A DNA stretch of 64,000 nucleotides from Fibrobacter sp. UWB11 (GTDB taxonomy: Bacteria > Fibrobacterota > Fibrobacteria > Fibrobacterales > Fibrobacteraceae), in the NCBI RefSeq assembly GCF_900143015.1, contig NZ_FSRT01000004.1, forward strand, positions 62,001-126,000, given 5' to 3'. This document shows positions 1,935 through 63,776 of this stretch, piece after piece. The notes under the pieces were generated by a model. That model was not told the origin of the DNA. It saw nothing but the letters and a program-made list of their open reading frames with translations, and did not search any database. The translations under genes were made by a program, and so were the position numbers. Position 1 is the first letter of the stretch. Each line of letters begins with the position of its first letter.

Positions 1935-3065
1935 TTATTTCCACTTGAATCGTCCGAACAGTCCGAACAATACGGCCAGAACGGTAAAGGGGGCGTGTAT
2001 GAATTCAACCGGGATGCACCATTTGAGGAGGTGTTCCTGCTTGAATATTTTGAGCCCGCGAATAATAAGTACCATGTCGCCGACACTTTTTAACAAGAAT
2101 GCAATTAAGGTGGCGACGAATATTTTAAAGCTGAAAATCGAAAGAAAAGCGGTTACACAGAGCATTACGAGGAACATAAATACCATCGAGAGCACAAAGA
2201 CGATTTTGGGCGTGTAGTAGATGGTCTTTGATGCCCAGCGTTTGCGCTGTTCCCAAAGTGCTTTGAGCGTTTCCTTGCCGCTAGTGGTGACGAACGTCGA
2301 AGGGGTAATGCAGTAACGCATGGCCCAGGGGCGGTCGGCTGCCAGTTTTTGCATCAGCAGGTCGTCGTCGCCGCTCTGTATTTTGATAACGCCCGTAAAG
2401 CCGTTTACGCTCTTGAAAAAGCTTTTGCGGTAGGCGAGGTTGTTGCCTGTACTTGTGAGCGGAAGGTGCATGGCGAGCCCTGCGGTCCCGGCTATGCGGT
2501 AAATGAGCGTTTCGACAGCCTGCATGCAAATGATAAATGGTGATTGGCTGTCGGTCGGAATATAGGAGTGCCCGGCGACAAGTTCAATCCCCGGTTCGAA
2601 TTCCTTGATGATTCCCTTGATCCAGGAAGGCTGCACGATGCAGTCGGCATCCGTAAGGCAGAGAATTTCTCCGTTGCAGGCGTCAATGAGCTTGGAAAGC
2701 GCCTGTTTTTTGGGGCTTACACCTTCGGGAATGGAATCGATTGTAAGGATATGCAACTTGCTGAATTTGGCGGCGTATTCGGCAAGAATCTTCGGGGTGT
2801 CGTCCGTGGAGCGGTCGTCTGCCACCCAGACTTCCCAATCGCCAGCATAGTCTTGTGCTAAAACGGAGTCTAGCGTTTCGCGGATTCCTTCGGATTCATT
2901 ACGTGCCGCAATCAGGATGCTCACCTTTGGTAGCGGTTCCGGGTCGGCATAGCCTTCGCGTACTCGTCCGAGTGCACGGTAGAACCGCACTTCTAAACCG
3001 AGATAGAAGATCGCTAAGATAGCCAAAAGCCCGATGGCCACGTATGTCAAAATCGTTAGGAACAT
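1935..3065 (-). CDS. family 2 glycosyltransferase, membrane-bound
   Basis: Processive-type GT2 glycosyltransferase of 376 aa that probably builds a cell-surface polysaccharide or glycolipid from a nucleotide sugar. An N-terminal transmembrane helix (about residues 3-25) is followed by a GT-A domain. Visible motifs are VSILIAARNES, VADDRSTDD (nucleotide-binding Asp), LTDADC (the DXD-like metal site) and EQRKRWASK (the QxxRW-like acceptor motif). Two to three hydrophobic helices follow at about residues 280-370, as in membrane-embedded synthases. It is the first gene of a tight pair with topB, and no functional link to topB is apparent. The acceptor and donor sugar cannot be told from sequence. 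The start ATG at 3065 has no strong Shine-Dalgarno. Confidence 0.88.
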   Translation of the reverse strand: MFLTILTYVAIGLLAILAIFYLGLEVRFYRALGRVREGYADPEPLPKVSILIAARNESEGIRETLDSVLAQDYAGDWEVWVADDRSTDDTPKILAEYAAKFSKLHILTIDSIPEGVSPKKQALSKLIDACNGEILCLTDADCIVQPSWIKGIIKEFEPGIELVAGHSYIPTDSQSPFIICMQAVETLIYRIAGTAGLAMHLPLTSTGNNLAYRKSFFKSVNGFTGVIKIQSGDDDLLMQKLAADRPWAMRYCITPSTFVTTSGKETLKALWEQRKRWASKTIYYTPKIVFVLSMVFMFLVMLCVTAFLSIFSFKIFVATLIAFLLKSVGDMVLIIRGLKIFKQEHLLKWCIPVEFIHAPFTVLAVLFGLFGRFKWK

Positions 3066-3194
3066 TTTTTCTTGGGCAAAATGTAATAACGTTTTTTTGA
3101 GTGTTTAAAACGCACTCTCAAAATCGCGGGGCATTTTTGCGTATATAATATAATAGTAAGTAACTGAGTGCTGAACGCGTGGGCAGTAACCGAG

Positions 3195-4865
3195 TTATTT
3201 TCTCGCGGAAAGTTTTGGCCAGGAATTTTCGGGCTTTTGGTTGAGGTATGTAAGGCGTGTCCAGGAATCGTCGCGGAATGCGCTACCGAGCATGAACTCG
3301 TCCATTTTCCCGGTAAATCCGCCGATTTTAAAGTCTGCAAACTTGCGGCTGCCGTCCCAATCTGTGCGAGTTTCTTCGGCTTCGATTGGAGCACCGTTGA
3401 TAAAGAAACTTATTTGCGGTATGGAATGCTTGCTGAATGCAATGAAAATCCATTTGCCAGCTTCGATTCCTTTTGTGCCTGACGCCCACGTTTGTTTGTA
3501 ACTTGCGGTGTCTGTGGCACCTTCATCGGCGGCATTTTCTGTGGCGATGTGATAGAATTCTACGACAAAGCCTTGTTCAGGTGAGTAGCGGAGTGCGTAT
3601 TCATCTGCTTTTTCAAAGAGGGACTGTTGCTTTAGCGATTCGAGGTTGACCCACAGCGAAAAACAAAATTGCATGCCGTCAAAGGACAAATTAACCTTGC
3701 GGGAGGAATCTATCTTGGCGGAATTAGTTGCTGTGATAGATGTTGCTGCGTCAAGTGCAATAGATGTGCCGAGAACTCCGTCCGAGTCGCGATTTGCGGT
3801 TGATTCGGCGAGCGCTTTTGCGGAACTTAACGAGCCTTCAAAGTAGCTTTTTTCGGCATCGTCCTTGATGTCGGTTCCGCTATCAAAATGGTACACGAGC
3901 GAATAGCTGCGGTTGGTCGGGAACACGTCGTGAGCGTAACCCGATTCAAGTGCGTTGTTGAATGAAAGCTCTAGCGAGTCAGAGACGTTTAATGAATCCA
4001 CGCTTACCCAGAAAATAGCTTCTTTTTCGTCAAAGACTGAATTCACAATCGGGAGCTTTTTGCTACGCTTGCCATCTTTTGAAATGCGTACAACTTCCCA
4101 GCGACCTTGCAAGCGAGCGAGTGTATCGATGTCGCTGTTTTCTGCGGTCAGGCGGAGCGCAAGCGGAATGTCGCTCACAAAAGACGAGAGCGTGTCTTCG
4201 CCTTCGGGGAGTGCAAGCGGGGCGACGAACGTGTATTCGATGTGGGGATAGTTGACGAGCGTCTGGACGGTCGTATCTGATTTGACGAAGACATCCCCGT
4301 AATCCAACGTGTCGTTTTCTATATAAATTCTGAGACCGAGCGTGTCGGTGGGCAAGCTGTCGATAATGGCCTTTTGCGCGTGAACGATCACTTTGCGTAA
4401 GATGGTCGTTCCGGGGATTGTGACCATGGCGGACGTGCCGTCTTCAATGAGGCTGTTGAACGCTATTTCGACAGAGCCTGGCGCGCGGAGCGTATCGCTA
4501 ACGGCGATGGAATCGTCTTCGGTGACGCTTACGTTCTGTACGAGGAACCGTTTGCCGGATTCTTCGTGGAATGCTTCGACGGCGTAAGTGCCTGCAGGAA
4601 TGGAATCGAGGCTGTAGTAGCCTGTGGAATCCGTTTCCGTGGTGTAGGCGGCGGGGAGCTCGCCTGAGGCCGCGTCAAAGTCGCTAGGGACGCAGTGCAC
4701 ACGTGCAAATGCGGCGGGGTTGCCGTTATCCAAAAGGAAAATACCGGCGAGTTCCGGAGAACCCGTCTCGGCGCTGTTGCCTGCAATATGGCTGTCGGAG
4801 GAGCAACCTCCAAAAATTGCGGTGGACGCAATCGAAACAGCCAATATGTTTTTGCAGAACTTCAT
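3195..4865 (-). CDS. surface lipoprotein, carboxypeptidase-regulatory-like plus LamG domain
   Basis: Predicted lipoprotein of 556 aa. The signal peptide ends at a lipobox with C21 (IFGGC), followed by SSDSHIAGN and then an ELAGI segment. Residues of about 38-110 look like a carboxypeptidase-regulatory (prealbumin-like) domain, with TDSTGYYSLDSIPAGTYAVEAF. The last 200 residues look like a LamG/concanavalin-like jelly roll (FCFSLWVNLE, GKWIFIAFSKHS, FINGAPIE). The same layout occurs in the lipoproteins at 18894 and 21212, which each follow a TIGR02147 gene; here no such gene is directly upstream. I chose the ATG at 4865 over an in-frame TTG nine bases earlier. A TATATT box (4873-4878 on this strand) ends 7 nt before that ATG and no Shine-Dalgarno is visible. 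It may bind polysaccharide at the cell surface (inference). Confidence 0.72.
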   Translation of the reverse strand: MKFCKNILAVSIASTAIFGGCSSDSHIAGNSAETGSPELAGIFLLDNGNPAAFARVHCVPSDFDAASGELPAAYTTETDSTGYYSLDSIPAGTYAVEAFHEESGKRFLVQNVSVTEDDSIAVSDTLRAPGSVEIAFNSLIEDGTSAMVTIPGTTILRKVIVHAQKAIIDSLPTDTLGLRIYIENDTLDYGDVFVKSDTTVQTLVNYPHIEYTFVAPLALPEGEDTLSSFVSDIPLALRLTAENSDIDTLARLQGRWEVVRISKDGKRSKKLPIVNSVFDEKEAIFWVSVDSLNVSDSLELSFNNALESGYAHDVFPTNRSYSLVYHFDSGTDIKDDAEKSYFEGSLSSAKALAESTANRDSDGVLGTSIALDAATSITATNSAKIDSSRKVNLSFDGMQFCFSLWVNLESLKQQSLFEKADEYALRYSPEQGFVVEFYHIATENAADEGATDTASYKQTWASGTKGIEAGKWIFIAFSKHSIPQISFFINGAPIEAEETRTDWDGSRKFADFKIGGFTGKMDEFMLGSAFRDDSWTRLTYLNQKPENSWPKLSARK

Positions 4866-35144: not shown

Positions 35145-38100
35145 ATGAAGTATCTAAACCGTTTGCTCGTTCTCACCGCTATGTTCCTCCCGATGTCCGT
35201 TTGGGCTCAGGGTGCTGTCACAAAACAATATCTGAATCTCTACTATAAGTCGAAAGAACTTTATATAGGTCTGTACAAAAAAAATTGTGTTGCCGGAAAT
35301 TCTTTTGAAGAAGGTACTTGTGTCAAGTCTTATGAAATAAAGCCCGCGCAAACTGTTCGCTCCGCTTTCGTTAATGCGATTAGTCAGCAATGGATATCAG
35401 GTACACCAGATGCGACCAAGATGCAATCGATTAAGCTGAATCTTGCTACAGACATTGACTTTGGTTATACTTTTGAAAATGGAAGTTGCTCGGAAAATTT
35501 TGACTTTTTGCCTTTCTCTGGTCTTTCCTTTAATGGACATAACCACATGATGTCGAACTTTTGTTGTATTGACAATGGACAGACCAAGCGGTATTTAGGC
35601 TTGTTTGGGGAAGTGGTCGGTAATCAAACGAATGGTAATAAAACGATAAGAGACCTGATAATTTCGAATGTCTATTTTGCCGTTACAAGCGGGGAACCTG
35701 CATTAACAAGTGGCGGTGATTATCAGCCGGCAGGCGCTCTTGCTGCTAGAATTTCTAATAGCACTGTGACAAATGTAAAATTAAAGGATGTTGTTATTCA
35801 AGCTCCGCTTGCAGGTGGTTTAGCCGGATTTATCGAGGGATCGACAATTACAAAAGTTTCGACTATTGATAACTCGTTTATTAAAGTAACGAATGGAATA
35901 TCAATTACAGAAGACTATATCGGAAAAGCGATTTATAAGTATGGTGAAAATGTCGCTGTTTTTGATCCGTATAAGGTTCTTTTGGGTGGTTTAGCTGGTG
36001 CGGCATACTTTACAAATTTTGAGGATATTGATCTTGCTGTCCAAGTGGAAAATAAAGCTGCTGTAGATATGTCGGCTTTGGGCGGCCTTGTTGGACATTA
36101 CGTTTATGCTCCGAAAAGTAACCAGTTCTCGCAGGTTACCAATCGAGATTCTAAAATTACCGAAGTGAATATTCACGGCTCTTCCAGTGATGTGGGTGTT
36201 AATGCTTTTATTTCCGGTGGTACTGCTATGGGTGGTATATTGGGGGCTTCAAGAAGGCTTGATAACAATAATTCACCGATTACAGAGTTTTCTATTAGTC
36301 AATCGACAGTGACGAATTTGGATATAAAGCAAAGCAGGTTTAAAATCAGTGATGTTGATGCAACGCAAAAGCTTTATTTGGGCGGTGTTGTCGGAAATGC
36401 CGATCTTTGCAATGGTGGTATTCTAAAAATTATTGAATCAAATGTCGTGAATGCAAACATTGAAGAATCGATACAGGAAAGTGGAAATTTCCAATATTAT
36501 ATGGGTGGAATTGCCGGTTTTGCATCATGCGATCATGTAAATAATTCAGGCAATCGTAATGATTTGTATTTAACGCTTCAAAAATCTAATGCTTCGGGTA
36601 ATATCAAGTTGGATGGTGGCTACAGTAAAACCGGGAAGACGTCGTTGTCGGTTCGTACTTCTGCTGCTATGGGTGGCCTTGTCGGTGATGCTATTGTTTC
36701 TCTTGATGAAGGCGGAATTTCTGAGAATGAATCGAAAGTTTCTATTTCATATAAAGCCAAAAGATCTGCAAGTGATGATTTGGATTCCGTGCTTGTCGGT
36801 GGTGTTTTTGGCACTGTCAGCCTTTTTAATTCGGCAATTGATTATGTTCGCTTGGCTAAGCTATCTTATAAGGGCTTACTAGATATTAATGATGATGGTA
36901 TTAATGCCCGTGTTGGCGGTATTGTTGGAAAATTCCCTATGATTCAGTCTGGAAATTCCAAGATTGAATTCAGTAATGTTCAAGTAAAGGGTGATAGTGA
37001 AAAAGACAATAATATTGTGTCGTATAGTGGTGAAACCAAAAGCTCTAGTACATCGTCGTCGATTGGTGGCATTTGCGGTATGTGCTTGTCGCCTAGAGAA
37101 ATAAGCAAGAGTTCAGTCGACGGTAATTTCAAGGGTTCCTCAGGAACTGATGCTCCTAAAAAGGATTTCCATGTCGGAGGCTTGATTGGTACGGTAGATG
37201 CTAAGGCTGATATTGATATTATAAAGAATAACTACTTTATCGGTTCTATTGAAAATAAATTAAATAAGAGCGGAAGTAAGGGTAAGGCTGGTTATCTCTT
37301 TGGCCATCTTACCGGTGATGGCTTGGGAAATAAACCAAAAATTATCTCGAATTTCCATTATGGTAGCGATAATGTTAAGGCTATAGGCTATTTCTACAAT
37401 TATGGTGAATATAACAATGTAATGTATTTTAACGAGATTCAGAATGGCGTCACCTTCGACAAGTTTGTAGCAAAGAACAATGTCCGTAATGGTTCTGCTA
37501 TGGATCTGCAGAATGGAGAAAATGGTTCTTCTATGAACGGTACCGTTACGGAATCTTATATGAAGTCTGAGACCTTTGCGGGTTTTTTGAATTCTCCGTG
37601 GGATGAAGACGAACAGGTGTGGTCTTTTGACGATACTCATGATTATCCGTTTTTGGGAACGACCTATGTTTCTCCGAAGGTCCAGGTGGTGTTCAAGGAT
37701 GCGGCAGGCAACAAAACCCAGAATGTCAAAATTGGTGATGCTGCCGTTGTTCCGGAGAATGTCGAATTGAAGTCGGAAGGTAAGTGCTTGACGGGCTGGA
37801 ATCCGGCGGACTTTACGAATGTGGTTGCCCCGATGACAATTACTGCCATATATGGGGATTGCCCGATAGAAAAATTTACAGTCAAGTTCTATGACATTGG
37901 TGGAAATCTCATTGAAGGCTCGGAACAAGAAGTCCTTGATGGGAAAGCTGCTGTTCCTCCGGCAGACCCATCGCCGAAGGATGGCTTGTGCTTTGATGGC
38001 TGGAACACTGATTTTAGCGTGGTTAAAGGCAATTTGCAAGTCAAACCGAATACGAAAAAGTGTGCATATACGGTAAAGTTCTATGACATTAGAGGATTTG

Positions 38101-40469
38101 TCATTGAAGGCTCGGAGCAGGAAGTCCTTTACGGGGAAGCAGCTGTTGCTCCGGCAGACCCGTTGCAGACGGATGACTTGTGCTTTATTGGCTGGGACAC
38201 TGATTTTAGCAAGGTCAAAGGCAATTTGGAAGTCAAACCGAATACGAAAAAATGCGTATTTAAGGTCAATTTCTATGGTCTGGATGGCACGACTGTAATA
38301 AAAACGCAAAACGTTCAGGAAGGATTGCCGGCAAGGGCACCGACCACGCCTGAACAGTTGGGTGACCTGTGCTTTGATGGCTGGGACACTGATTTTAGCG
38401 AGGTCAAAGGTGATTTGGAAGTCAAGGCAAATACGAGAAAGTGCGTATTTAAGGTCAATTTCTATGGTCTGGATGGCACGACTATAATAAATACGCAAAA
38501 CGTTCAGGAAGGATTGCCGGCAAGTGCACCGGATTCGCCAGAACCGTTGGGTGACCTGTGCTTTGATGGCTGGAACACTGATTTTAGCGAGGTCAAAGGT
38601 GATTTGGAAGTCAAGGCTAATACCAAGGCTTGCCCGAATTCGAGTAGCTCTAATCAGCAGTCTAGCTCCAGTTCTTCTATTTCTAGCTCTAGTTCTAGCA
38701 GCGAAAACGCCTCGGAATCCTCGAGTTCTTCGAGTGTAGAAAATGGCGACAAGTCTAGTTCTTCTAGCGCTGGTAACGGTTCTAGCAGCAGTGCTGTCAA
38801 TGACAAGTCTAGCTCTAGCGCAAGCGATATCTTTACGGTTGTTGCAAAACCGACCGCAAAACAAGACGGCAGTGCACTCCGCATGACAATCAACGATACG
38901 CTTCCGGATTCGCATGCCAAGGTGGATTACCACATTATTGTGAAGTCTGATGTAGGTACTTACCTCGATACGGTGGTCGATGGAAAAACGGTGGGTGACG
39001 TTAAGAACGGCACTTGGAGCTTGGATCCGGCCCCTGCAGGTGAATACAAGGTGCTCATTACGCTTACGAATGGCAAAGATTCCATTGTTGCCTACGATAG
39101 TATTTTCGTTGGCAGTACAGAAAAGCGAGTGGATCTGGTTTCGAATACCTGGCAGACGTATTCTCTGTACGCCTTCTGCAATGATAAGGGTGAAAATTGC
39201 AAGAACGACTTGAAGGATCGCTTTGCTCGTAAGGCCGAAATTAGGGCCATCGAAGAATGTCGCCAAATGAAGGAAGATCTTGCACGTTCGCCGGATGATG
39301 CTGACTTGCGTGAAAGCGTGGATGAAGTCTGCCGTGAAGCAATCGAATCGCAAAACGAAGTTGCAACATCTGTGTTCTGGTGGGATGAATCGAGTCCTAT
39401 TGGCGATTACTGGCAGTATCGCAGATATGATGCCGATGATAAGTTCGATTCCACTCGCGGTTACTGGTACGGTTCTGTTGACGATGAACCGCTCATGCTC
39501 AGCTTGCAGACTCCGAACATGAAGGATGAAATCGTTTGGAAATTGGAAAACAAGTATACCGGTTGGAATTTGGTGGCTAACCCCTATGGTTGGTATGTCA
39601 AACTCCCGCAAAACGATGATGTCGTGTTCAAGAAGTGGAAAGCGGATATAAGTGACTACGACACGGTAAGTATACTTGGTCCTTATGAAGCTGTCTGGGC
39701 ATACACCAGCAAGACTAGAGAATATCGTATTCCTTTGAAGGCTGCAATTGTTCTTGAAGGCGAAAAGAAGACCAAGTCGCTCTCCAAGAGCGCTATGTCC
39801 GAAAGTTGGAACCTCCGCGTTGTGCTTACGGATAAAAATGGCAAGCGCGATTATTGGAACGAACTGGCTGCGGGTAGTGTAGCCTCCTCGTTGAGTGAAC
39901 CGCCTGCAGGCATGGGCGACCGTGTGAACCTCTCCATTGTCGAGGGCAAGCAGCGCTTGGCTAAGAGCGTCAAGAAAAACAGCGATGAACTCGAATGGAA
40001 TCTCGAAGCAAGCGCTACGACAACTCGTGATGGCAAGTTGAACTTTGAAGGGCTCGAAAGTGTCCGCGCTAAGGGAATGCATGTCTTTGCAACGATTGGC
40101 GAAGAAACGTTTGAAGTTGTGAATGACCGCCCGTTGAACGTAAAGCTTTCTTCGAAGGCTAAGAATGTGTCTGTTCGAGTGACCAAGAGTGCAGTACCTG
40201 CTCAGGTGGCTAAGAATCTCATTTCGGGATTCCGCGTGAACCAGATGCAGAATGCTTTGAATGTCGGCTTTGAAGGTGTCTCGAATCTTGCCGGTGCTAA
40301 GGTCAAGGTGAGTGTCGTGGGTATCGATGGCCGTATGGTTGCTACGAGCGGAACAGTTGCTCATGAGGGCACGAACTCTATTTCGATGAAAAAACCGAAA
40401 CAGGGTGTCTATTTCGTTCGCCTCAAGGTTGGTAGCCAGAGTGCTGTTACCCGCATTATGGTCCGATAA
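35145..40469 (+). CDS. giant secreted repeat protein with GLUG-like, InlB-type repeats and sorting domain
   Basis: 1774 aa, signal peptide ending VWA. Residues of about 150-760 carry about ten Gly-rich GG(L/I/V)xG motifs (GGLAG, GGLVGH, GGILG, GGVVGN, GGIAGF) spaced 40-90 residues apart, as in GLUG-type beta-helical adhesins. Residues of about 845-1163 carry one diverged and four tandem InlB/Listeria-Bacteroides-type repeats of 63-67 residues (TVKFYD..., DLCFDGWNTDFS). A Ser-rich linker, an unassigned domain of about 330 residues and a full C-terminal sorting domain (VSVVGIDGRMVA, KQGVYFVRLKVG) follow. The ribosome site is AGAAGG. Probably a surface adhesin or matrix protein (inference). Opposite-strand frames up to 1034 codons are shadows. 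Confidence 0.8.
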   Translation: MKYLNRLLVLTAMFLPMSVWAQGAVTKQYLNLYYKSKELYIGLYKKNCVAGNSFEEGTCVKSYEIKPAQTVRSAFVNAISQQWISGTPDATKMQSIKLNLATDIDFGYTFENGSCSENFDFLPFSGLSFNGHNHMMSNFCCIDNGQTKRYLGLFGEVVGNQTNGNKTIRDLIISNVYFAVTSGEPALTSGGDYQPAGALAARISNSTVTNVKLKDVVIQAPLAGGLAGFIEGSTITKVSTIDNSFIKVTNGISITEDYIGKAIYKYGENVAVFDPYKVLLGGLAGAAYFTNFEDIDLAVQVENKAAVDMSALGGLVGHYVYAPKSNQFSQVTNRDSKITEVNIHGSSSDVGVNAFISGGTAMGGILGASRRLDNNNSPITEFSISQSTVTNLDIKQSRFKISDVDATQKLYLGGVVGNADLCNGGILKIIESNVVNANIEESIQESGNFQYYMGGIAGFASCDHVNNSGNRNDLYLTLQKSNASGNIKLDGGYSKTGKTSLSVRTSAAMGGLVGDAIVSLDEGGISENESKVSISYKAKRSASDDLDSVLVGGVFGTVSLFNSAIDYVRLAKLSYKGLLDINDDGINARVGGIVGKFPMIQSGNSKIEFSNVQVKGDSEKDNNIVSYSGETKSSSTSSSIGGICGMCLSPREISKSSVDGNFKGSSGTDAPKKDFHVGGLIGTVDAKADIDIIKNNYFIGSIENKLNKSGSKGKAGYLFGHLTGDGLGNKPKIISNFHYGSDNVKAIGYFYNYGEYNNVMYFNEIQNGVTFDKFVAKNNVRNGSAMDLQNGENGSSMNGTVTESYMKSETFAGFLNSPWDEDEQVWSFDDTHDYPFLGTTYVSPKVQVVFKDAAGNKTQNVKIGDAAVVPENVELKSEGKCLTGWNPADFTNVVAPMTITAIYGDCPIEKFTVKFYDIGGNLIEGSEQEVLDGKAAVPPADPSPKDGLCFDGWNTDFSVVKGNLQVKPNTKKCAYTVKFYDIRGFVIEGSEQEVLYGEAAVAPADPLQTDDLCFIGWDTDFSKVKGNLEVKPNTKKCVFKVNFYGLDGTTVIKTQNVQEGLPARAPTTPEQLGDLCFDGWDTDFSEVKGDLEVKANTRKCVFKVNFYGLDGTTIINTQNVQEGLPASAPDSPEPLGDLCFDGWNTDFSEVKGDLEVKANTKACPNSSSSNQQSSSSSSISSSSSSSENASESSSSSSVENGDKSSSSSAGNGSSSSAVNDKSSSSASDIFTVVAKPTAKQDGSALRMTINDTLPDSHAKVDYHIIVKSDVGTYLDTVVDGKTVGDVKNGTWSLDPAPAGEYKVLITLTNGKDSIVAYDSIFVGSTEKRVDLVSNTWQTYSLYAFCNDKGENCKNDLKDRFARKAEIRAIEECRQMKEDLARSPDDADLRESVDEVCREAIESQNEVATSVFWWDESSPIGDYWQYRRYDADDKFDSTRGYWYGSVDDEPLMLSLQTPNMKDEIVWKLENKYTGWNLVANPYGWYVKLPQNDDVVFKKWKADISDYDTVSILGPYEAVWAYTSKTREYRIPLKAAIVLEGEKKTKSLSKSAMSESWNLRVVLTDKNGKRDYWNELAAGSVASSLSEPPAGMGDRVNLSIVEGKQRLAKSVKKNSDELEWNLEASATTTRDGKLNFEGLESVRAKGMHVFATIGEETFEVVNDRPLNVKLSSKAKNVSVRVTKSAVPAQVAKNLISGFRVNQMQNALNVGFEGVSNLAGAKVKVSVVGIDGRMVATSGTVAHEGTNSISMKKPKQGVYFVRLKVGSQSAVTRIMVR
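37863..38633 (+). repeat. tandem coding repeats (189-201 bp units)
   Basis: Units begin at 37863, 38064, 38256 and 38445. The last two (189 bp each) are almost identical in DNA, so they are a likely site of slippage or recombination. Confidence 0.85.
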
Positions 40470-57247: not shown

Positions 57248-58735
57248 TTAATTCGTGACTTTGAATTTCTTGGGGCCGGCGTAGGCTTGCTTTACAAGAA
57301 TGTCTCGGCCTTCTTCCATGAGCTTCTTCGCTTGTTCGGCAAGTTTGTCATCATCTTTTTCCTTGATGACTTTTTCCAAGTGTTCCATTGCCGCATTTAC
57401 ATCAGCTTTTGTCTGGATGCGGAGCTCTGCAATGTCGAAGTGCGCACGGCGTAAAAGATTTTCGTCTTTTTCCTTGGTAATTCCTTTCTCGAGCAATGCA
57501 ATTGCTGCTTCGGGGATGTTCTTTTGCTTTGCTGTTGCACCCCATTCAATCCATTGCGTACTCGGGAATTCTGCATAGCAGCCTGCGATTTTGTTTGCTG
57601 CGTCTTTTACATCTTGGAACTTGATGGGCTCTTCTTTTAACAGTGCTGTGAATCCGTATTGCAACAAGCGAACAGCGTTTTCGTTTTCGCCATTGTTTGC
57701 GGCTTCCAATCCTTTGCTGATCATGTTTCGGGTGCGTTCACCGGGGGCTACAGAATCTTCTGCTTTTTGTGCAACTGCTGTTGATTGTTGTGTGCTTTCT
57801 TCTACGCGATGAGGCATAAAGTAACCTGCAACTCCGCCCAAGGCAAAGAAAAACGGCGATTCTACGGCCACGGCGTTGAATATGCCGGGGTTCAAGAACC
57901 AGTCGATTGCCATACTTGCTACAAGTGCGAATTCCGAAATTTTGCAGATGTAAGAGGGAATGCTTCCTTTTTCTTTGTCAAACGTGTTGGCGCCGAGCAA
58001 AAAGCAGAGCATCAGGCTCACGCCCATATAACGTTCTGTAGCAAATTGTGCAAAGAACGACGTGTTTACGAGTAAATCGACAAAGAACCCGCTTATAATT
58101 GCAATCACGATTGCGTATGCATAAACGAATAACGCGTTCCAGCGCTTTTCGAGCTGCATCAACGTGAACATGAAAATGACAACGAAGAAAATAAAGGACC
58201 ATATACTCGGGATTAGTAAACTGCAAGTGAGTAAACTTTCTGTGTTGCCACGACTCGGAATGTAAGCCCAACGATAACGGATAAATTTATCGGTGTACTT
58301 GTTAATCCACTTTTTGAGTTCCGCCTCGTATTGCTTGTCGGTGGGGAATGAGCCGTGCTCCGCGGCGTATTGCTCCTTTCCGCCTTGGTTTTCCCACCAT
58401 TCGAGGAATTCGCCCTTCATTTCTTCGATGCGGTCCTCGATAATCGGGGTCGGGTTTTCGACTTTATAGCGTTCCTTGTAAAGCTCGAACTCTTGAGCCT
58501 TGATTTTTTCGTCGGGCGTGAGGCCTACGTTCTTAAATTCCTGGGCACGTTCCTCTAGCCACCACTTGTCGAAAGATTCTTGGATGTCTTTTTCTTGACG
58601 CAACTGCTGGATCTTGGGGTCGAGCGTTGTCTCGAAGTTGAAAACACCAATGGCAATAATCGCCACGAATGTCAGATAGTGGTGGATCTTGAAAAAACGG
58701 AACGGTTTTAGAATTAGGCTCAATATTTTCTTCAT
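57248..58735 (-). CDS. rhomboid-like membrane protein without catalytic residues, helical-repeat tail
   Basis: 495 aa. Helix 1 (about 20-37) is followed by a 150-residue charged helical loop, then five or six membrane helices. The middle resembles the rhomboid core: WAYIPSRGNTESLLTCSLLI, MQLEKRWNALFVYAYAIVIAIISG, and RYMGVSLMLCFLLG at the GxSG position. The HxxxN of helix 2 is replaced (SIWSFIFFVV), and the helix-6 His is missing (FALGGVAGYF). Proteolysis is therefore unlikely. The soluble C-terminal 170 residues are TPR-like (ISKGLEAANNGENENAVRLLQYG, AAIALLEKGITKEKDENLL). It lies 68 nt downstream of the kinase gene on the same strand. The fold assignment is my reading, not a search result. 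Confidence 0.6.
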   Translation of the reverse strand: MKKILSLILKPFRFFKIHHYLTFVAIIAIGVFNFETTLDPKIQQLRQEKDIQESFDKWWLEERAQEFKNVGLTPDEKIKAQEFELYKERYKVENPTPIIEDRIEEMKGEFLEWWENQGGKEQYAAEHGSFPTDKQYEAELKKWINKYTDKFIRYRWAYIPSRGNTESLLTCSLLIPSIWSFIFFVVIFMFTLMQLEKRWNALFVYAYAIVIAIISGFFVDLLVNTSFFAQFATERYMGVSLMLCFLLGANTFDKEKGSIPSYICKISEFALVASMAIDWFLNPGIFNAVAVESPFFFALGGVAGYFMPHRVEESTQQSTAVAQKAEDSVAPGERTRNMISKGLEAANNGENENAVRLLQYGFTALLKEEPIKFQDVKDAANKIAGCYAEFPSTQWIEWGATAKQKNIPEAAIALLEKGITKEKDENLLRRAHFDIAELRIQTKADVNAAMEHLEKVIKEKDDDKLAEQAKKLMEEGRDILVKQAYAGPKKFKVTN

Positions 58736-58803
58736 ACTAACGAATATAAACAAATCGTTAGTCGATAGTTAAGCAAGGGGCCTAAATGGGGGCAAAAGAT
58801 GTG

Positions 58804-59910
58804 TTAAAATGTACGTTTGCCGTATTCGTTCAGCTGATTCCACAAGAAATCGGTGTTCACGTCGCGGTAGCCGAGGGTGTTCACCTCTTCGCGGAGCTTA
58901 TGGGCGAGGGCGAACAAGTTGGGGCTCTTTTTCATGCGTTCGCTGGCATCGAAAGTGGTGAGCGCGTCAATCCAATCATGGATTTCCGGGAAACGGGGGT
59001 CGTTGAATACGTTTTCGCGGCCGTTCTCGATATATTCCATGTAGCGCTTGGTGATCAGGCGGCCTTCTTCGGTGTAAATGTCCTTGGCCTTGGGATAGAG
59101 TTTTACCCCGGTTAGGTATTCGTGCATGACGGCACCAAAGCTAAAGTAGTCGACCGCGTAGGAAATGTTTTCGCTGGATTGTGCAAGTTCCGGGGCGCTG
59201 TAGCTTGGCGAGAACAGTCCACCGCCTTCGGTGACTGTTTCACGCATTTTAGCTTGGGCGTAGCCGAAGTCGCAAAGTAAAATCTTGTGGTTGTTCTTGT
59301 GCGCGGGGTTTTGGCAAAGGAGCAAGTTCTTGGGCTTGATGTCCTTATGCACAATTTGATAGTAATGGAGCTGGCTGATAGTATTGGCGAGGTAGGCTAT
59401 TTGAGCTACTCGCTTTACGACTTCTTCTTCGGTGAGCTTGGGCTTGATGACCCTGTCGAGGGAGCATCCCTTGATAAATTCCAGCTTGAGGTATGGGTGG
59501 CGGCCTGCGATGCCTCCGCCAAAAGTTTGTACTACGCCTTCGATATTTGTAGCGCGGATAAGGTTGTTGATGCGGATTTCGTCCTGAAATGCGCTCAAGA
59601 GCATGTTCAGGCGGTGCAGGCGGTTCTTACCGGGAGATGCCCAGTATTTGCAAATCTTTACGACGATTTCTTTTTCGTCATAGCGTTTTTCGTCGCGCGG
59701 GTGCTGGATCCAAAGTTTGGCGCGGTATAGCTGGTTCGTGCCTTCGAGTGAAAGCGGTTCGATGAGCTCGATTCGCTCGGCGTTGCCGTTGTGCTTAAAG
59801 TCCGGGTTATGGTCAAACCACCGCTGGTATTCTGCCATGGTGTAGTTTGGGCGTAACGCTAAATTGCGTGCCACCCTGTCCATCATTTCTGCCAAATTGT
59901 TCCAGAACAT
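58804..59910 (-). CDS. Ser/Thr protein kinase
   Basis: 368 aa, soluble. The kinase core spans about residues 45-340: IVVKICKYW (ATP-anchoring Lys), VHKDIKPKNLLL (catalytic loop, HKD rather than HRD), LCDFGYAQ (DFG), YSAPELAQ (APE), VDYFSFGAVMHEYLTG. The Gly-rich loop is poorly conserved. There is no transmembrane helix or extracellular sensor, unlike PknB-type kinases. It is followed on the same strand by the rhomboid-like gene, so the two may act together. Confidence 0.88.
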   Translation of the reverse strand: MFWNNLAEMMDRVARNLALRPNYTMAEYQRWFDHNPDFKHNGNAERIELIEPLSLEGTNQLYRAKLWIQHPRDEKRYDEKEIVVKICKYWASPGKNRLHRLNMLLSAFQDEIRINNLIRATNIEGVVQTFGGGIAGRHPYLKLEFIKGCSLDRVIKPKLTEEEVVKRVAQIAYLANTISQLHYYQIVHKDIKPKNLLLCQNPAHKNNHKILLCDFGYAQAKMRETVTEGGGLFSPSYSAPELAQSSENISYAVDYFSFGAVMHEYLTGVKLYPKAKDIYTEEGRLITKRYMEYIENGRENVFNDPRFPEIHDWIDALTTFDASERMKKSPNLFALAHKLREEVNTLGYRDVNTDFLWNQLNEYGKRTF

Positions 59911-59934: not shown

Positions 59935-59956
59935 ATGCCCGCTCAGTGGCGGGCAT
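59935..59956 (-). terminator. terminator after the LOG-family gene
   Basis: ATGCCCGC-TCAGTG-GCGGGCAT with an A-run on the left. A second arm pair CCTGAAC...GTTCAGG (59976-60014) follows, part of the GTCATCCTGA-type intergenic repeats. Confidence 0.65.
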
Positions 59957-60025: not shown

Positions 60026-60871
60026 TTACTTCTTGTTTTTCGAGTCTTCTTCGGCGTGAGTGCGGGCGAATGTGACCTGCCCTTCGCTCTGTTCTTCGAG
60101 TCTGGACGTGATGAAGTCGTAGGCTTCGTCGACCGTGTCGCAGAACTTGAAGAGCTTGAGGTCTTCGGGGTTGATCATGCCCGTTTCTGCAAAGAATTCC
60201 CAGTTGAGGGCTTTCTTCCAGAAATTGGAATCGAAGATGACGACTGGCATTTGCTGTGCGTACTTATCGGTCTGGATAAGCGTGAGCATTTCGAAGGCTT
60301 CGTCGAGTGTGCCGAATCCGCCTGGGAAAATCACCAACGCACGGGCCATGCGCAAGAACCAGTATTTACGAATAAAGAAATAGCGGAACTGGAGGTTCAG
60401 TTCATCGTCGATGTAAGGGTTGCAATGTTGTTCGAACGGTAACTTGATGTTCAAGCCAACCGAAGGCGTTCCCACGTCCGAGGCGCCGCGGTTGCCTGCT
60501 TCCATGATGCCCGGACCGCCGCCAGTCATGATGGCGTAGCCGTGGTGACGCTTGTTGATCCACTTGCCGAGCTTGGCGGCAAGTTCACGAGCCGCGTTGT
60601 AGGAATCTGCCACTTTGGAGAGTCGGTCTAAGCGGGCAAGTTCCTTTTTGTCTTTGCAACCTTTACGGCGTTTTTTGATCTCGTCGGGCGGGAGAGTACG
60701 TGCCGAACCAAAGAATACGATAGAATTCTTTATGTCTTCTTGATCAAAAATCTGTGCAGGTTGGAAAAATTCAGAAAGGAATCGAATGGGGCGTGCTGCA
60801 TCGCTTTCCAAAAATTCGGCATTGTGGTATGCCATTTGACCCGGAATCGGGTGGACTTTTTTCGGTGCCAT
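60026..60871 (-). CDS. LOG family protein (TIGR00730-like)
   Basis: 281 aa Rossmann-fold protein of the lysine-decarboxylase-like/LOG family, whose members release the base from nucleoside 5'-monophosphates. Motifs are MTGGGPGIMEAGNRGA and PGGFGTLDEAFE, which contain the catalytic Arg/Glu set. It is longer than plant LOG enzymes, with N- and C-terminal extensions typical of the bacterial long form. Physiological substrate not known. Confidence 0.9.
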   Translation of the reverse strand: MAPKKVHPIPGQMAYHNAEFLESDAARPIRFLSEFFQPAQIFDQEDIKNSIVFFGSARTLPPDEIKKRRKGCKDKKELARLDRLSKVADSYNAARELAAKLGKWINKRHHGYAIMTGGGPGIMEAGNRGASDVGTPSVGLNIKLPFEQHCNPYIDDELNLQFRYFFIRKYWFLRMARALVIFPGGFGTLDEAFEMLTLIQTDKYAQQMPVVIFDSNFWKKALNWEFFAETGMINPEDLKLFKFCDTVDEAYDFITSRLEEQSEGQVTFARTHAEEDSKNKK

Positions 60872-61202: not shown

Positions 61203-63776
61203 TTACCATTCAATGGCAATTTTCGCGACGAGGAATCGTCGTGCGATGTCGTCTGTTTTCGTCGGGTCAATATCGATACCGAGTAGTCCGGCGAGAATGA
61301 CGAACGGGCTTGCGGTGGCGCCTTGGTTATTGCACATGACGCGCATGTAGATGGTGCCATCCTTAATTTCTAGCCCGCTAACCAATTCATTCAAATTCAT
61401 CTGCTGACCGCGGTGGTTCGTCATAATTGGCAACTGCTTCTGTTCGAACTTTTGCATGAGGTCGGCAGGGATGTTTTCGGGCGTGTGGCGGTAAACGATT
61501 GCTTTCGGGAAATGCTTCGAGAGCTTTTCCTTGAGCGGTTCGATGTCCACGATTTCCATGCCGTGTGGGAACGGTGCGCTCAGCATTTCGATGGTCTTTT
61601 GTTTGCCTTCGGCGGAGATGTCGAGCGGCTGCAGCAATTCGACACTGATGATTTCGCAATAAGTTTCGAGCCCGAGCGGGAGTGCGCCCATGTTCACGAT
61701 ACGTGGCTTGGGGCTAAAGCCTTCGCTGAACTTGACGGGGATGCCTGCACAGATAAACGTGCGCTCGAAGAACGAGATCATGTTGTGGTGCGGCAGGAAT
61801 CGGCTGATGCCAGTCTTCTTGAATGTGATCTTGTAACCGTAGCTGACCTTTTGGCTCGGGCGACGGTCGGCAACGAGCTTCTTGATTTCTTCGGGAGTGC
61901 GGCTGGGCGCCTTGTGGCGCACGGGATCGTCCGCGAGGACGATTTCCTGGCCAAAGCCAGGAATGCCGCACTTCTGGCAGTCGCCCCATTTGCAGTTCGG
62001 CACTGGAGCGGATGTCGGATCGAAAGCTTTTTCCCATTCGCGGCGCAGGTACTGCTTGGACGTGCCTGCGTGGATAAAGTCCCATGGGAACACTTCATCC
62101 TTTTCGCGTTCGCGGTAGACCCAAGAGGTATCGTAGCCGCATTCTTCCCAAACCTGTAGCCACTTGTCAAAGTCAAAACGGTAACTATCGCTTTCGAAAA
62201 TGATGCCCTTCTTGTAGGCGGCATAGATGACCGGTCCGAGGGAGCGGTCACCGCGGCTGTAAACAGCCTCGAGGAAACTTGTTTCCCAAGCGGCCCAGTT
62301 GATTTTCACATTCGGGTGCTTGTAGAATTTTTCGCGCACATAACGGATGTGACCGAGCGCCGTTTCTTTGTCCATAAACGGAGCCCATTGCAGGCCCGTG
62401 AACGATTTCGGGATGAGAATGCCGATTGAAACTGCGATTTGGATGCCGCGGTTGTACTTGCGACCAATCTTTACGAGATTGAAAATGAGCTCGCAGAATG
62501 CCTGCATGTCATCCAGGTTTTCGGTCGGGAACCCAATCATCGTGTAAAGCTTGATTTTGTTGAATCCGCTGGAGAACGCATGTTCGGCGGCATCATACAT
62601 GTCCTGGTCGCTGATGGTCTTGTTGATCATCTTGCGGATGCGTTCGGAACCAGTTTCGGGGGCGAACGTGGCGCTGCGACCGCCCTTGAGCGCTGCAACC
62701 TTTTCAGCAAGACTTTGTCCAAAACTGTTGACGCGAATGCTCGGGAGGCTTACATCTACGTTGTCGTAGAATGGGTCGTCGATGATGGAATCGGTGAGTG
62801 CTTCAACCGGCTTGTAGTCGGCGGTAGAAAGCGACAAAAGCCCAAGCTCGCGTTCGCCTGTCGCCTTGATGCCCGCTTTGGCAATGTCCAAAACATCGTC
62901 CGGATTGAGTTCGCGGCATGGTCTGTACCAAATGCCGGCTTGGCAGAAACGGCAACCCTGCGCACAACCGCGCATCACTTCCACGCTAAAGCGGTTGTGG
63001 ACAAGTTGCATATTTGCAATCAAGTTCTTGATGGGGTAGTCTTTCGGGTCGAGATACGGGATAAATTGACGGCGGACACCGTTCGTGTGCTCGTAAGAGC
63101 CTTTAGCGGGCTCTTTCGGAACGATAACTCCATATTCGTTTTTTACAACTTCACGGAGGCTCGGTACATACACCCCATCTATTTTAGATAAATTCTCTAG
63201 AATCTCGGAACGCTTGAGACCAGCCTTGCGCCCTTCGCCCACACAACGTACAAATTCAACAATCAGCTTTTCGCCATCGCCAATCATGAACGCGTCAAAG
63301 AAGTCGGCTACCGGTTCCGGGTTCCCCATGGCGGGGCCGCCCGAAACAACGATCGGGTCGCTCTCGGCACGGTCTTTTTGCCATGCCGGAATCCCCGCCA
63401 GTTCAAGTACGTACGGGACGTTCGTAAAATTCAGTTCGGTCTGGAGTGTAAGCCCTACGACCTCGTAATCCTTGACAGCCGTATAGCTTGCATGCGTGTA
63501 AAGCGGGATGTCGTACTTTTTCATCTCGGCGGCCATGTCGTCCCACGGAGCAAAGGCAACTTCGCAAAGCAGGTCCGGTTCGCGGTTGAGAACGTGGTAC
63601 AATATGCGCAGCCCGTTGTTGCTCATGCCGATTTCGTAAGTGTCCGGGAACACGAACGCCATGCGTGCAAGCATTTTGCTATGGTCTTTGATGACGCTAT
63701 TTGCTTCGCCGCCCATGTAACGGGCGGGGCTTTCTACGGCGGGGAGTGCAAGAGCAAGTTTTTCAAGGATTGTCAT
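61203..63776 (-). CDS. B12-binding radical SAM protein fused to DUF2344
   Basis: 857 aa. The N-terminal 200 residues are a B12-binding-like domain (FPDTYEIGMSNNGLRILYHVLN). The radical SAM barrel (about 240-560) carries the iron-sulfur motif CAQGCRFC (C-x3-C-x2-C). The C-terminal part (about 640-857, YGYKITFKKTGISRFLPHHNM, GFSPKPRIVNMGALPLGLETY) is DUF2344. These two halves correspond to TIGR03960 and TIGR03936, often encoded by separate genes next to RNase G. No rng gene is visible here. Proposed roles involve RNA or tRNA modification; not proven. Confidence 0.9.
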   Translation of the reverse strand: MTILEKLALALPAVESPARYMGGEANSVIKDHSKMLARMAFVFPDTYEIGMSNNGLRILYHVLNREPDLLCEVAFAPWDDMAAEMKKYDIPLYTHASYTAVKDYEVVGLTLQTELNFTNVPYVLELAGIPAWQKDRAESDPIVVSGGPAMGNPEPVADFFDAFMIGDGEKLIVEFVRCVGEGRKAGLKRSEILENLSKIDGVYVPSLREVVKNEYGVIVPKEPAKGSYEHTNGVRRQFIPYLDPKDYPIKNLIANMQLVHNRFSVEVMRGCAQGCRFCQAGIWYRPCRELNPDDVLDIAKAGIKATGERELGLLSLSTADYKPVEALTDSIIDDPFYDNVDVSLPSIRVNSFGQSLAEKVAALKGGRSATFAPETGSERIRKMINKTISDQDMYDAAEHAFSSGFNKIKLYTMIGFPTENLDDMQAFCELIFNLVKIGRKYNRGIQIAVSIGILIPKSFTGLQWAPFMDKETALGHIRYVREKFYKHPNVKINWAAWETSFLEAVYSRGDRSLGPVIYAAYKKGIIFESDSYRFDFDKWLQVWEECGYDTSWVYREREKDEVFPWDFIHAGTSKQYLRREWEKAFDPTSAPVPNCKWGDCQKCGIPGFGQEIVLADDPVRHKAPSRTPEEIKKLVADRRPSQKVSYGYKITFKKTGISRFLPHHNMISFFERTFICAGIPVKFSEGFSPKPRIVNMGALPLGLETYCEIISVELLQPLDISAEGKQKTIEMLSAPFPHGMEIVDIEPLKEKLSKHFPKAIVYRHTPENIPADLMQKFEQKQLPIMTNHRGQQMNLNELVSGLEIKDGTIYMRVMCNNQGATASPFVILAGLLGIDIDPTKTDDIARRFLVAKIAIEW

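Follow-up and report, generated by a model that had tools for sequence, protein, structure and literature searches.

The locus considered here raises the question of what a protein built like a rhomboid protease does when most of the residues needed for cutting appear to be gone, and of whether the protein kinase encoded beside it is its partner. It lies in a window of 64 000 nucleotides of Fibrobacter sp. UWB11 (by which is meant the whole stretch of DNA that was analysed), where the genes follow one another on the minus strand in the order TIGR03960 radical SAM gene, LOG-family gene, kinase and 495-aa membrane protein (table 1). The original prediction had placed a 501-codon frame at 68 nt from the kinase. 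The length of 501 codons is obtained by counting from an upstream TTG (ORF 57248-58753), with a gap of 50 nt to the kinase stop at 58804, whereas the distance of 68 nt fits the ATG start alone. Elsewhere in the window (37877-38623) a tandem array was observed, with a unit of approximately 189-192 bases, 2 to 2.4 copies and two overlapping rows.

Table 1. Genes, domains and sites of the locus (positions are those of the window).
Feature	Position	Strand	Basis
Predicted pseudorhomboid gene (ATG start at 58735, 495 aa)	57248..58735	minus	
TM1, approx. residues 17-38	58622..58687	minus	AlphaFold model; membrane end judged by eye
Helical TM1-TM2 domain, residues 39-164	58244..58621	minus	AlphaFold model
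Rhomboid core TM2-TM6, residues 165-311	57803..58243	minus	model and profile comparison
HxxxN positions replaced: S180, F184	58184..58198	minus	alignment
S240, Ser of GxS retained; next Gly is Leu	58016..58018	minus	alignment
P294 in place of the catalytic TM6 His	57854..57856	minus	alignment
TPR-type helical tail, residues 331-485	57281..57745	minus	model, structure alignment, profile comparison
Soluble Ser/Thr-type protein kinase, 368 aa	58804..59910	minus	
LOG-family gene (TIGR00730, lysine-decarboxylase-like), the kinase's constant upstream neighbour	60026..60871	minus	
TIGR03960 radical SAM gene	61203-63776	minus	

Fold, topology and catalytic residues of the membrane protein

The search of Pfam, NCBIfam and PADLOC returned nothing above the curated cut-offs for the window membrane protein, and the Pfam Rhomboid model (PF01694) gave no match to it. 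The AlphaFold model (40 sequences; mean pLDDT, 83.5; pTM, 0.55) consists of TM1, the helix of which extends to residue 69, a helical domain (approx. residues 39-164), five further membrane helices (approx. residues 165-311), a low-confidence linker and a helical-repeat tail, with S240 at the start of a short fourth transmembrane helix. When this model was compared with 983 chains with a second-look structure aligner, GlpG chains occupied ranks 1-21 (Z, 14.4 to 12.5), the best of them with 169/179 residues aligned at 3.4 Å, and the GlpG-like six-helix fold was found to span residues 17-309. After GlpG came unrelated helical-repeat proteins matching on the tail (Z, 11.3 and less); residues 316-485, approximately, match TPR chains at Z values of approximately 10-11, where helical repeats of many kinds score alike. 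Plain Foldseek against the PDB gave no rhomboid among the best 50 matches, which were mostly TPR and helical-repeat proteins, and a viral library yielded only weak matches of this type, namely a ‘GlpG-like’ protein at rank 2 (E 0.03) and rhomboids at ranks 25 and 44. The original prediction of a rhomboid-like core, for which a fold unlike rhomboid had been named as refutation, is thus upheld by the GlpG chains at the top of the structure alignment, and that of a TPR-like tail by the modelled repeats and their TPR matches.

The domain between TM1 and TM2 is less easily placed. Folded alone it yielded a low-confidence model (pLDDT, 73; pTM, 0.44), with which no known fold reached a Z of 4 among 31 chains. 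It contains no Cys in the window protein. Its identity to the window sequence ranges from 43 to 92% in 39 genus-level rows (37-83% for the whole protein), and in a wider set its conservation (0.60) is barely ahead of that of core and tail (0.57 for both). Rhomboids have a cytoplasmic N-terminus and six helices; by this topology the TM1-TM2 domain would be periplasmic and, provided that the transmembrane helices are indeed six, the tail would be cytoplasmic.

The fate of the catalytic residues was followed in an alignment of 71 rows from Fibrobacteraceae (70 of them distinct, the window copy being present twice), from which rows shorter than 380 aa or at 50 bits or less were left out. At their own columns the His and the Asn of HxxxN and the His of TM6 are found in 0/71 rows, with an Asn at the His column of HxxxN in four; the position of the Asn is occupied by Phe in 64/71 rows and that of the TM6 His by Pro or Leu in 59/71. 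Thus, of the features required of the S54/PF01694 proteases, the Ser-His dyad lacks its His and the HxxxN motif is missing in 71/71 rows. The Ser of GxS, which in the window protein belongs to G238-V-S240, is present in 65/71 rows and is Thr in one, the others having Ala (L035), Met (L033), Phe (L034) or Gly (L036 and L037); at the level of the genus (40 rows) neither G238 nor S240 varies, and the Gly that should follow the Ser has mostly given way to Leu, Ile or Val. The loss of HxxxN and of the TM6 His initially read from the window sequence is therefore that of the whole family, most members of which also keep the Ser of GxS, and the window gene, as far as proteolytic activity can be judged from sequence, encodes a rhomboid pseudoprotease.

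Descent from active tail-bearing rhomboids

A profile built from 19 relatives was searched in 167 genomes of the phylum. Matches at E 0.001 or better were found in 110, and a relative of the window protein is present in 79/80 genomes of the genus. With a pattern scan outside the phylum set, which detects close relatives, those found were labelled Fibrobacter, Fibrobacteraceae or Fibrobacterales. The profile also caught rhomboids of distant families, namely L038 and L095, mostly via the tail, and L096, in which core and tail both match (ORF search, E 1.3e-16); two further profile-matched ORFs, L102 and L103, were chosen from a list of long rhomboids. The five belong clearly to PF01694, with E values of 5e-25 to 3e-27, and HxxxN, GASG and AH(V/I)GGF are intact in 5/5.

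Profile-profile comparison of the pseudorhomboids with these five gave a probability of 95.0% for the core (E 3.8e-8; reversed control, 0.1%), of 98.3% for the tail (E 2.1e-14; reversed, 0.4%) and of 99.4% for the whole length. The two sets are thus alike in having homologous cores and tails, and differ in the full catalytic set of the active proteins and in the loop domains, for which there is no profile match (0.0%). By taking these homologies into account, the window protein is a rhomboid protease minus its site. The pseudorhomboid core has no direct match to the canonical rhomboid of its own genome (0.1%), whereas the cores of the active tail-rhomboids do match this canonical rhomboid (97%), so that the kinship runs via the tailed active rhomboids; homology of the family to rhomboids at large is accordingly carried by this bridging group, together with the modelled fold. 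Among the near relatives, L036 borders the Pfam Rhomboid model (E 0.07). Orthologues with an intact Ser-His pair, which had been named beforehand as a refutation, were found only outside the family, where they show its descent instead: it is from a TPR-tailed, catalytically complete rhomboid protease that is still present in other Fibrobacterota. The initial identification of a pseudoprotease with a TPR-like tail is therefore backed by the fold, the family-wide catalytic loss and the active tail-bearing relatives.

In a tree of 75 rows, which carries no independent root and in which the deep members L036 and L037 are long-branched and unsurely placed, the 70 pseudorhomboids are set apart from the other rows by a branch supported at 100/100, and for this reason the active site need have been lost only once, on the Fibrobacteraceae stem. 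The two deep members (L036:3842-5125 and L037:3974-5230) are strongly diverged pseudorhomboids of two other genera, without the GxS Ser and with a shortened loop domain; in their genomes kinase and LOG are located elsewhere. The ω values are 0.03-0.08 in the 14 closest pairs, with a median of 0.08 over 84 pairs, and 0.10-0.12 in a second set. The pseudorhomboid is a maintained protein under strong purifying selection and not a decaying gene.

Tail-only descendants were also considered among short proteins with two transmembrane segments from genomes of the genera g4 and g2, the C-terminus of which matches the tail profile at approximately 19-25 bits, and were rejected because such matches are too weak. 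A kinase adjoins these proteins at 2/5 loci examined (L099:1698-3924 and L100:1249-3553, in both cases kinase followed by two-TM protein with a weakly tail-like C-terminus); the L099 kinase carries an F5/8-type C domain, and three similar loci have no adjoining kinase. The active tail-rhomboid of L095 is divergent to a gene for a 654-aa protein kinase, the two genes of this pair being located at 480-2441 on the minus and at 2694-4160 on the plus strand, perhaps by chance in view of the many kinases of that genome.

The kinase and its neighbours

The kinase matches Pfam Pkinase (PF00069; E 1e-24) and retains Lys85, Glu111, Asp190, Asn195, Asp214 and Glu241 in 70/70 orthologues; it lacks the classical GxGxxG loop, the place of which is taken by GTNxLxRA, and, as judged by eye, has no transmembrane segment of its own. 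A defence function was considered and set aside, the PADLOC matches resembling those of any kinase. Counting from sequence matches to both genes in the 167 genomes, the pseudorhomboid is found in 97, the kinase orthologue in 90 and both in 90, so that the kinase is never alone and the pseudorhomboid is alone in seven. In 84/90 kinase genomes (G137 by fragments only) the kinase is directly upstream of the pseudorhomboid on the same strand. The genes are distant on one contig in G044, G112 and G146 and lie on two contigs in G061, G098 and G149; the separation in G149 resembles a contig break, as both matches reach contig ends, which leaves five genomes in which they are truly apart. The adjacency noted in the window is thus real and old, and the kinase is always accompanied, as a pair would predict; an obligate pair, however, is contradicted by the seven kinase-less genomes and by the five with the genes apart.

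The seven (L109, L110, L115, L116, L117, L118 and L132) form one Fibrobacter clade (support 87/98) and represent a natural knockout. In them the pseudorhomboid comes directly after LOG at a distance of some tens of nt, its first in-frame ATG lying within 70 nt, indicating a clean loss, and no kinase orthologue was found elsewhere in these genomes, where only distant kinases are present (best E 2.6e-10).

The LOG-family gene is directly upstream of the kinase at 37/37 loci with at least 1 kb of upstream sequence or with LOG visible, 27 others being too short. This adjacency holds at four loci with the pseudorhomboid elsewhere and, by coordinates, in G061; the kinase is tied to LOG at least as tightly as to the pseudorhomboid. 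With LOG upstream everywhere it can be checked, LOG is therefore the constant member of the group, either of the other two genes being absent from it in some genomes. These data are in line with a kinase that works with the LOG-family enzyme, the pseudorhomboid being a mere neighbour in a housekeeping gene row. This proposal is, however, a doubtful one by considering that the kinase is nested strictly inside the pseudorhomboid distribution (90/90), that neither gene was found in the g4 and g2 genomes, that LOG adjoins the pseudorhomboid after loss of the kinase (7/7) and that in the window LOG and kinase are separated by a terminator-like hairpin with a T run (59935-59956, minus strand). Because of the latter, LOG and kinase may be separate transcripts in the window, though they adjoin at every checkable locus. 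Near genes, terminator-like sites number 12 as compared with 6.3 in shuffled sequences, and promoter-like sites show no excess (4 versus 4.1).

The order and strand shared in most genomes, the invariant catalytic residues of the kinase, its lack of a membrane segment and its absence from all genomes devoid of the pseudorhomboid would also suit a dedicated kinase-scaffold pair. In it the tail would dock the kinase and the loop domain would sense a periplasmic signal, the two proteins forming a split transmembrane receptor kinase with the pseudorhomboid only as anchor or switch. We regard this arrangement as unlikely, however, since the five genomes with separated genes have the kinase still beside LOG and the seven kinase-less ones retain a constrained pseudorhomboid, tail included: the median ω of the tail is 0.112 in the kinase-less clade (19 pairs) and 0.118 in the others (73 pairs), and the tail/core dN ratio is 0.87 and 0.92, respectively, with neither core nor tail relaxed. 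As the tail did not decay after kinase loss, it is probably not solely a kinase dock. The kinase-less clade, the separated genes and the kinase-LOG tie therefore speak against a dedicated two-part system.

A probable non-catalytic adaptor and its precedents

By analogy with known systems, the pseudorhomboid would rather probably be a non-catalytic adaptor or receptor of the inner membrane, which the kinase would regulate in those genomes that have it. Client proteins would be bound by the rhomboid core through their transmembrane segments and left uncut; the helical domain, predicted to be periplasmic, would contact the client or sense a signal, and soluble partners would be recruited by the TPR tail on the cytoplasmic side. 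The co-inherited kinase would probably be a regulator acting on or through the pseudorhomboid, dispensable for its core job. Against such regulation, none of the cytoplasmic Ser or Thr residues of the pseudorhomboid is invariant among kinase-bearing genomes and missing from the kinase-less ones, the best phosphosite candidates being T335 (45/57 with the kinase, 5/7 without) and S392. That S240 is instead active with another base, so that the protein is no pseudoenzyme at all, is highly improbable in spite of the conservation of the GxS Gly and Ser, given the replacement of the Ser in several rows (five with Ala, Met, Phe or Gly and one with Thr), the lack of the oxyanion-hole His and Asn and of the general base in all rows, and the Leu, Ile or Val that mostly follows the Ser; its conservation could signal remnant chemistry.

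The adaptor reading draws on precedents of different closeness. With GlpG-type rhomboids (PF01694) the window protein shares the six-helix fold and the GxS at the start of a short TM4, and it differs from them in the absence of HxxxN, of the TM6 His, of the Gly of GxSG and of a Pfam Rhomboid match, and in its extra loop domain and tail. To our knowledge, Derlins have neither a TPR tail nor a TM1-TM2 domain. They are alike by description, in the excerpted text of a recent review, as an inactive rhomboid fold that handles membrane clients (PMC12615303). The closest bacterial case is Bacillus subtilis YqgP (GluP), which also combines a rhomboid core with a C-terminal TPR array and, according to the excerpted account, presents MgtE to FtsH in a role for which its own protease activity is not needed, but an unoccupied active site is (PMC7231995). 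YqgP, however, is proteolytically active, its N-domain binds metal in the cytosol and its TPR domain is extracellular, whereas the window protein has no such N-domain, is not expected to be active and has a tail that is predicted to be cytoplasmic. Client binding by the core is proposed because rhomboid folds bind transmembrane segments and because of the precedents of YqgP and of iRhoms; it may not take place via the old cavity, since this holds Phe and Pro or Leu and the adaptor role of YqgP requires the site to be free.

The iRhoms (RHBDF1/2) work without catalysis, their most conserved domain being in the TM1-TM2 loop, and the window protein resembles them, as far as the excerpted description goes, in being a pseudoprotease with a conserved domain at the position of the iRhom homology domain (PMC6451368). 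The metazoan proteins, however, have GPx for GxS, seven transmembrane helices, a loop domain rich in Cys and an extended N-terminus in the cytoplasm, as opposed to GVS at 238-240, a Cys-free loop domain and approximately 16 residues before TM1 in the window protein, so that the resemblance is a likeness of plan rather than kinship shown. That the family constitutes a bacterial iRhom-like module of its own, with one active-site loss, a periplasmic loop domain gained, the TPR tail kept and client handling tuned by the kinase, can be put forward only tentatively.

Within the open-access library searched, no dedicated bacterial pseudorhomboid was found. In its excerpted text, the 2025 review treats rhomboid pseudoproteases as iRhoms and Derlins (PMC12615303). 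Thus, pseudorhomboids as such are known, and what appears to be new, as not found in our searches, is a dedicated bacterial family whose phylum still contains active relatives built on the same plan. Eukaryotic study centres on iRhoms and Derlins, and in the best bacterial precedent found the pseudoprotease-like role is a second one, taken on by an enzyme that is active. The present family suggests that conversion of a dead protease to a scaffold took place in bacteria as in animals, and it offers a comparison between tail-bearing relatives that are still active, their inactive descendants, some of which lack even the Ser, and a clade from which the kinase has gone. With it, the question of what the rhomboid fold is used for once it no longer cuts becomes testable in a bacterium.
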